From Candidatus Poribacteria bacterium (GTDB lineage Bacteria; Poribacteria; DTPJ01; WJIO01), in assembly GCA_014730235.1 (NCBI GenBank), contig WJIO01000260.1, positions 1 to 20,468 on the forward strand: DNA of 20,468 nt, in the 5' to 3' direction. Shown piece by piece: positions 5,972 through 7,565 of this stretch (position 1 is its first letter; the number at the start of each line of letters is the position of its first letter). Both the position numbers and the translations under genes were made by a program. The notes under the pieces were generated by a model. That model made no database searches and was not told where the DNA came from. It saw nothing but the letters and a program-made list of their open reading frames with translations.

Positions 5972-6943
5972 TTACATCTGTTGATGTACCTGGCTATTTA
6001 ATTTCATAAATAAATCTTCCAGGGATTGACTTCTTGACATCATTGAAACCAGCTTTCCGCTGTAGCTTCTTATGGTATCAAGAACTTTTGATATAGTTTC
6101 CTCACCTTCGGGAAACCCCAGACCGTGAACAGCCACAATAGTTTTATCACCATTAGTCATCAACTCGCCGCCCAGAGATTGAATGACGTTTTTACCTTCG
6201 TCGCTCAATCCTGCGACTGTAATTTCAACCGATTCAAGTTCCAGGCTTAAAGTTTGATTCATATCCTCAACATGCTGGATTTTACCCTTCATAAGAATAC
6301 CGATTTTATCACATAAAGCCTCAACATCTGAAAGAATATGAGAGCTGAATATTATTGTCCTGCCCTGTTTTTTCAGATCGAGAATTATATCCCTTATTTC
6401 TTTTCTTCCTATGGGATCCAGACCCGAAAGAGGTTCGTCAAGAATTACAAGCTCCGGATCATTTATCAAGGCCTGGGCTATACCGATCCTTTGCAGCATA
6501 CCTCTTGAATATTTTCTTAGATGCTTGGAAGCTGAATCCTCTAAACCTACGGCTTCCAGAATATTCTGTACCCTTTGTTTTCTGGTTTTCTTGTCTAATT
6601 GAAAAAGTTCAGCGTAAAAATCCAGAAATTCCTCACCGGTAAGATGATCATAAAAATAAGGTTGTTCAGGTAAAAAACCGACTCTTTGTTTAAATGTATA
6701 ATTTGATATTTTTTCACCCATAACCCATGCTTTACCAGAGGTAGGATACAACAATCCCATAAGCAACTTAAATGTAGTAGTTTTACCAGCTCCGTTAGGT
6801 CCAAGATAACCAAAAACTTCACCCTTATTTATTTCTATATTCAGTTTGTCCAAGGCTTTCACTTTATGCTTTCGCTTAAATATAGAATCTTCTTTGAATA
6901 TCTTGGTTAAATCTTCTGTTTTTACTGCCGGTATTCCACTCAT
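5972..6943 (-). CDS. ABC transporter ATP-binding protein (PilH-like by context)
   Basis: The 323-residue protein carries every ABC ATPase motif: Walker A GPNGAGKTT (48-56), Q-loop Q94 in LPEQPYFY, signature YSRGMLQRI (145-153, the YSRGM form usual for ABC-2 exporters instead of LSGGQ), Walker B LVILDEP (165-171), D-loop SGLD and H-loop H202. Residues after about 230 form a C-terminal extension with a DrrA/NatA-like regulatory fold. It energises the permease encoded 11 nt downstream. The ATG at 6943 has only a weak AAGG ribosome site. As first gene of the cluster it should carry the operon promoter, but I could not identify a convincing one in 6944-7058. Gene-neighbour similarity to M. xanthus pilH is contextual. 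Confidence 0.92.
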   Translation of the reverse strand: MSGIPAVKTEDLTKIFKEDSIFKRKHKVKALDKLNIEINKGEVFGYLGPNGAGKTTTFKLLMGLLYPTSGKAWVMGEKISNYTFKQRVGFLPEQPYFYDHLTGEEFLDFYAELFQLDKKTRKQRVQNILEAVGLEDSASKHLRKYSRGMLQRIGIAQALINDPELVILDEPLSGLDPIGRKEIRDIILDLKKQGRTIIFSSHILSDVEALCDKIGILMKGKIQHVEDMNQTLSLELESVEITVAGLSDEGKNVIQSLGGELMTNGDKTIVAVHGLGFPEGEETISKVLDTIRSYSGKLVSMMSRSQSLEDLFMKLNSQVHQQM

Positions 6944-7127
6944 GGTAAAACCTTATGCGTTTTCACACAATTGTTTATTAGCGTATAAACGTAATTTATT
7001 TTTCAGTAGCACTAGTCGTATACGTGTGAAATAATCGGTCGAAACATTTCAATATTACGTAATCGTTAAAAAATTATAGATATATACAGAAAAATAGCTT
7101 CATAGTAATGGTAAATTATAAGACTTA

Positions 7128-7201
7128 TCATTCCTGCGAAAGCAGGAATCCAGAAAAAAACACTATCCTGGGAGACTGGATTCCTGCTTTCGCAGGAATG
7201 A
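7128..7201. repeat. Nested palindrome: 26-bp perfect inverted repeat, each arm itself a hairpin
   Basis: Arms 7128-7153 and 7176-7201 are exact reverse complements over 26 bp, separated by 22 nt. Each arm has its own 8-bp stem-loop, ATTCCTGC GAAA GCAGGAAT on the left and its complement on the right. This ATTCCTGC-N4-GCAGGAAT core resembles short palindromic intergenic repeats such as neisserial dRS3 (ATTCCC-N8-GGGAAT). Such repeats are usually present in many genomic copies and can be recombination or insertion targets. The GC content of the arms stands out from the AT-rich surroundings. Confidence 0.7.
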
Positions 7202-7232
7202 CAGAAATTTATGCTTGTTTTTTTTATAAAAA

Positions 7233-7289
7233 GTAATTGTTAAAAAATGGATATAATTTAGTTTTCATTTTTCATTTTTTAACGATTAC
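7233..7289. repeat. Internal copy of the 16-mer paired with the right terminal repeat
   Basis: GTAATTGTTAAAAAAT (7233-7248) differs from the left terminal repeat by one base and is an inverted match to the right terminal repeat (7274-7289), with a 25-nt spacer. In RNA the mismatch becomes a U-G wobble, so the segment could fold into a 16-bp hairpin. Confidence 0.55.
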
Positions 7290-7340
7290 ATTACATACAT
7301 ATGATCACGATAAAGTTATTTAAATTTGTGTAAACTATTC

Positions 7341-7493: not shown

Positions 7494-7524
7494 TAATGAA
7501 ACAGGCTAGCAGTCTGTTTCATTA
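7494..7524 (+). promoter_or_regulatory. Leader hairpin upstream of the DUF3352 gene
   Basis: TAATGAAACAG (7494-7504) and CTGTTTCATTA (7514-7524) are perfect 11-bp arms. Pairing can continue inward through a G-U, a C-G and a U-A pair to an AGC triloop, giving a 14-bp stem. It lies 41 nt before the start codon and is not followed by a U-tract, so it is more likely an mRNA-stability or translation-control element than a terminator. Confidence 0.45.
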
Positions 7525-7565
7525 AGCTTATCTTCGGTCAGCCAAATATGAATGGAGGAACAAAT

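Follow-up and report, generated by a model that had tools for sequence, protein, structure and literature searches.

A composite non-autonomous DNA transposon of a high-copy MITE family in a Candidatus Poribacteria bacterium, most likely moved in trans by a DDE transposase

Non-autonomous DNA transposons of the MITE kind are already known from bacteria, and several described systems offer a frame for the family reported here, which is a further member of that kind. MITEPye1 of Paracoccus yeei is a 159-bp, ORF-free, intergenic element with 18-bp terminal inverted repeats (TIRs) and long stem-loops, which shows little sequence variation, makes 4-bp duplications, occurs in 1-3 copies per chromosome and has had its mobilisation attributed to IS1182-family transposases in trans (PMC11578231). 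In the available part of a review (PMC10969869), the Chunjie MITE of Geobacter uraniireducens appears as a one-genome family of 178-235 bp. The dRS3 repeats of Neisseria, as given in the available part of their description, have the layout ATTCCC(N8)GGGAAT (PMC3898611).

We analysed a 231-bp element lying in a stretch of 20,468 nucleotides, referred to throughout as the window, from a Candidatus Poribacteria bacterium. Like MITEPye1, the family to which this element belongs is short, ORF-free, intergenic, TIR-bounded and able to fold into stem-loops; it differs in its duplications of 5-6 bp rather than 4 bp, its more than 100 copies, its many sizes and its chimeras, the likeness being one of description (PMC11578231). 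With Chunjie it shares conserved ends, duplications, variable length and many partial intergenic copies, again by description, but it carries a shared hairpin module, and none is mentioned for Chunjie in the available part of the review (PMC10969869). For QMITE1 and QMITE2 of Coxiella burnetii, the same review describes copies that grade from full length to truncated, some of them REP-like, and the window family resembles them in description (PMC10969869). The window hairpin follows the dRS3 layout with T for C, and both systems form mosaic repeat arrays in intergenic DNA; the hairpin of the window is, however, cargo of a TIR-bounded MITE, which dRS3 is not said to be in what is available of its source (PMC3898611).

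Our reading, to which we give a probability of about 0.93, is that the element is a composite MITE with TIR ends GTAATCGTTAAAAAATG and a 5/6-bp target duplication, most likely moved in trans by a DDE transposase encoded elsewhere in the same genome. The ends, the duplications, the copy number, the empty sites and the identity of the parts are documented at the level of sequence. The original prediction of a MITE moved by a transposase from elsewhere is strongly supported by the copies, the duplications, the empty sites and the shared ends of an IS; what has to be amended is its simplicity, the element being a composite of two family members and not a single MITE.

The perfect 16-bp ends with ATTAC on both sides, on which that prediction was built, are borne out. 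The left TIR, GTAATCGTTAAAAAAT, occupies positions 7059-7074 on the plus strand, and the right TIR, at 7274-7289 on the minus strand, is its exact reverse complement, with the pentamer ATTAC at 7054-7058 and again at 7290-7294. The interior proved non-coding, as had been stated: the longest open frame has only 57 codons and there is no transposase gene. At 27%, the G+C content of the element is below the 39% of the window. A third terminal 16-mer, also claimed, does lie inside the element, at 7233-7248 on the plus strand, but it is not identical to the outer end, having one mismatch (GTAATTG in place of GTAATCG). A perfect 26-bp pair of palindrome arms at 7128-7153 and 7176-7201, absent from the original prediction, completes the interior. 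With a length below 500 bp, no transposase gene, TIRs and 5/6-bp duplications, the element has the features of a MITE, and its family adds many copies, differing flanks, empty sites and an autonomous relative that shares these ends.

To search the genome for copies with shared ends and varying flanks had been proposed as a check, and this search was positive: in the window's own genome, a 5.53-Mb draft of 451 contigs (G000), the 16-mer TIR matched 329 times when as many as 2 mismatches were allowed, and its reversed pattern, used as a control, 10 times. With no more than 1 mismatch allowed, the 17-mer gave 235 matches, against 0 for the reversed pattern, and no more than 5 in each of 83 other genomes of the phylum. 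The 21-mer of the TIR had four single matches in genome contigs, from unrelated taxa and taken as chance, and no match in viral contigs. Among the genomes tested, the family is confined to this species. If most TIR matches pair, it would number about 120-165 elements. Sequences for closer inspection were fetched as a sample of 80 contigs within C1-C81 (0.75 Mb, chosen independently of content) plus 20 selected others. The elements have common ends and unrelated flanks, and paired ends fall into size classes of 57, 67, 86-91, 123-125 and 171-174 bp, beyond which lengths extend to 266 bp, apart from a single element of 1311 bp. Just inside the repeat the two ends differ, one being an A end (GGATATAATTTAGTT) and the other a B end (GAAAAATGTGTTTAG), and copies can therefore be oriented. 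Another family member, at L170 13498-13621, has ATTAC on both flanks, as has the window copy.

The target duplications define the boundaries of the element. The right end itself finishes in ATTAC, and for the window copy alone the duplication could therefore be partly chance. Across the family, 43 of 57 distinct end-to-end elements carry a duplication of 5 or 6 bp (27 exact at 5 bp and 16 exact at 6 bp), a set that comes from several overlapping searches, is not a random sample and counts the window twice, as the 231-bp and the 57-bp pairing. When the flanks of these elements were re-paired at random, the mean was 1.3 duplications and the maximum 6, and flank matches at lengths other than 5 or 6 bp were few. 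This family evidence settles the element boundaries despite the worry over a single copy. Correia elements duplicate TA and have a TIR of their own, and identity of the window family with them was rejected on its duplications of 5-6 bp.

Empty sites were recovered for other members of the family, and two family copies lie inside other repeats. A 173-bp element in L005, flanked by duplicated ATAAT, has an uninterrupted counterpart in L041 with 98% identity and a single ATAAT, and a 171-bp element in L017, with TTGATT duplicated, sits in a repeat that is uninterrupted in L177, L154 and L152 (85-88% identity). Three further candidate empty sites, for L004, L008 and L012, proved to be self-matches of A+T-rich ends and were discarded. 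For the window insertion itself, an allele with a single ATTAC, which had been named as a further check, did not turn up: no empty site or orthologous locus was found in its own genome or in 28 relatives, where the flanks outside the element matched nothing.

The presence of three end repeats is explained by the anatomy of the element. Its last 57 bases (7233-7289, minus strand) are 100% identical to G000:C190:3295-3351, a mini-MITE in which a B end is joined to an A end with the interior lost. At C190 this unit stands alone between its own ATAAA repeats, and it therefore looks mobile by itself. The third copy at 7233-7248 is the left end of the mini-MITE, and the right TIR is common to the mini-MITE and the 231-bp composite. 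The remainder, 7059-7232 on the plus strand, appears to be the remnant of a longer parent MITE: compared with a 143-bp element at G000:C331:3427-3569 (L024 1501-1643, duplication TAAAT), it is 90% identical over the left 79 bp, and the parent's right spacer (7202-7232, plus strand), ending TTTTTTTATAAAAA, is 92% identical. In L024 and L048 this spacer leads, through (T)CTTC, to the right end that belongs to the parent; in the window it leads into the 57-bp unit. The internal third end repeat would accordingly be that of a second, 57-base mini-element which landed inside a longer MITE.

The simplest order of events can be proposed from these junctions. A parent MITE, longer than the present remnant, would have come first; a 57-bp mini-MITE would then have inserted near its right end; and the two right ends would have been fused, either because the stretch between these direct repeats was deleted or because the outer pair of ends was used in transposition, leaving one 231-bp unit between ATTAC duplications. 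The second of these routes amounts to a one-step origin, in which the transposase paired the parent's left end with the far end of the nested mini-MITE and moved both, ATTAC being duplicated at that moment. Such outer-end pairing predicts one duplication around the 231 bp and none around the 57 bp, as is seen, and a 230-bp chimera bounded by family ends (L026 1413-1642) has its own TATTC duplication, as though chimeras move as units. Nevertheless, in-situ deletion between the direct 16-bp right ends predicts an identical sequence and the data do not separate the two. We place the one-step origin a little short of even odds.

The transposase with the same ends, whose existence the original prediction had made a point to be checked, was sought and found in a single autonomous element of 1311 bp (G000:C228:12327-13637; L061 1028-2338), both of whose 16-bp ends are perfect and identical to the MITE ends. 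Because the ends are shared, we take this IS as the probable driver in trans, and its DDE transposase is the most likely agent. Its 402-aa ORF matches DDE_Tnp_1 above cut-off and DUF772 at 22.5 against a cut-off of 23.1. The NCBIfam IS1182 model gives it 46.4 bits, far below the cut-off of 270, and an Alicyclobacillus transposase 28% identical to it, with 110 bits, is likewise under the cut-off. The likely catalytic residues align between the two proteins as D (WDSVP/IDSRP), D (LLVDQ/LVADM) and E (RRLIEPEF/RRQIELSF), and the C228 protein would be an intact-looking DDE enzyme that is only distantly related to IS1182. It is the only protein of its kind in its own genome and across 84 genomes of the phylum; no relatives were found in those genomes, in GTDB genome contigs, in viral contigs or in phages, a plasmid search returned one distant homologue, and no matching solved structure was found.

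A different transposase, lost for instance from the draft or from the cell, might instead have mobilised the MITEs, and we consider this unlikely. The C228 protein is the sole transposase of its kind in the genome, no obvious target duplication surrounds its single copy, and the IS matches the MITEs in the ends only, the interiors sharing nothing beyond about 22 bp at one end; in a 451-contig draft, moreover, other autonomous copies may be missing. Against this, both 16-bp ends are the same as those of the MITEs, and at one end the identity with the MITE B end extends over 22 bp. We infer from these ends that the C228 transposase acts on the family, which may be currently active.

A further alternative is that the locus is not mobile DNA at all, and represents a conserved structured RNA or a REP-type intergenic repeat whose ends lie within a long stem. 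The strand folds far better than its shuffles (DNA fold z -9.7) and there are REP-like hairpins in the middle. Yet Rfam returned no family at gathering score, only sub-threshold matches. A functional RNA also does not agree with the target duplications and empty sites, with a 57-bp member that has no hairpin, or with size classes that span 57 bp to 1.3 kb. Because duplications and empty sites were found, this reading is refuted as a sole account, and we hold it to be highly improbable. A chance origin of the end matches from simple A+T-rich sequence, as the short, A+T-rich ATTAC/GTAAT might suggest, has a negligible probability: the genome-wide copy number already refutes it, and 200 first-order Markov versions of the window contained 0 perfect 16-bp inverted pairs at a distance of 60-500 bp, against 9 in the real window, a count that includes overlapping 16-mers, such as the internal hairpin would supply.

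The transposon reading leaves the interior of the composite to be placed. The 74-bp palindrome at 7128-7201 consists of two inverted dRS3-like hairpins with a 22-nt spacer between them, each hairpin being ATTCCTGC-N4-GCAGGAAT. This corresponds to ATTCCT(N8)AGGAAT, the dRS3 layout with one symmetrical substitution, and is not the exact 20-bp dRS3 sequence ATTCCC(N8)GGGAAT. The pattern has 356 exact matches per strand in the window's own genome, where one palindromic site can match both strands; it recurs in other families of the phylum (172 matches in G003, 41 in G001 and 12 in G035) and is missing from most of the phylum. In G003 and G035 the exact dRS3 layout ATTCCCGC-N4-GCGGGAAT predominates, and exact ATTCCC(N8)GGGAAT forms occur in G001 as well. 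A RAYT/REPIN origin of the hairpin is not supported: the genome has one Y1 transposase, without the hairpin in its 3.4-kb locus.

The same module is present in other MITEs of the genome, including those of a second, larger family whose ends read GGYTCTTCCGGGTTYAGTGTGG, with 681 end matches genome-wide, and many of whose copies have 8-bp duplications. Its members measure 120-164 bp, as in L103 1694-1813 and L161 6211-6373. GG ends and 8-bp duplications are ISL3 traits, and on this ground the second family is probably akin to ISL3. Fragments of ISL3 transposases were found in L199, L200 and L201, two of them at contig edges and one with a similar end nearby, and these may represent its drivers. 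Of 121 hairpins in the 0.75-Mb sample, 105 lay near ends of the first or second MITE family, against 20 of 339 random points. Members of both families carry the dRS3-like hairpin, either singly or as an inverted pair; where hairpins are paired, the spacer that separates them can have either orientation (L002 1471-1643, L023 1440-1612).

Chimeras connect the two families directly. The 230-bp chimera of L026 has first-family ends and a second-family segment, L047 1501-1701 likewise has first-family ends around a second-family segment, and in L077 405-670 a second-family copy lies inside a first-family end, between TCATTTTT repeats. We tentatively suggest, at less than even odds, that both unrelated families took up the same dRS3-like palindrome, and that MITEs may swap halves through it as a hub of recombination or selection, with the resulting chimeras transposed as units. 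Module uptake by two families, and exchange through the palindrome, would be a lead to follow.

The placement of the family is strictly intergenic in our sample, with 0 of 33 elements on the fetched contigs inside ORFs of at least 100 or at least 120 aa by simple longest-ORF gene calls; random points fell inside ORFs of at least 120 aa in 79% of cases. This is the distribution to be expected if insertions that disrupt genes are selected against. As for a bias to upstream or divergent regions, the elements divide among divergent, tandem and convergent gaps nearly in proportion to intergenic lengths, so no regulatory preference is inferred. In the window, 115 bp separate the element from the start, at 6943, of a minus-strand ABC-transporter gene; the element is upstream of this gene, and the pil genes are farther downstream. 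On its other side, 258 bp lie between the element and the start, at 7548, of a plus-strand gene, the gene names being a reading of the translations. A terminator-like stem of 14 pairs is seen at 7494-7524, upstream of this plus-strand gene. The promoter scan found no sigma-70-like site within the element, and the region holds fewer such sites than its shuffles. The proposal that the element might have brought in promoters of the pil cluster, or set them apart, finds no support here, and no host function is indicated.

This analysis contributes a bacterial MITE family that is well documented and high in copy number, together with its probable driver IS, and one copy whose parts can be followed one after another. 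Of greater interest than this element by itself is its setting in the genome. By estimate from end counts, the two MITE families together have perhaps 450-500 elements; they differ in ends and in duplication length, share one palindromic module and have formed chimeras. They lend themselves naturally to testing how small non-autonomous elements acquire interior parts and exchange them.
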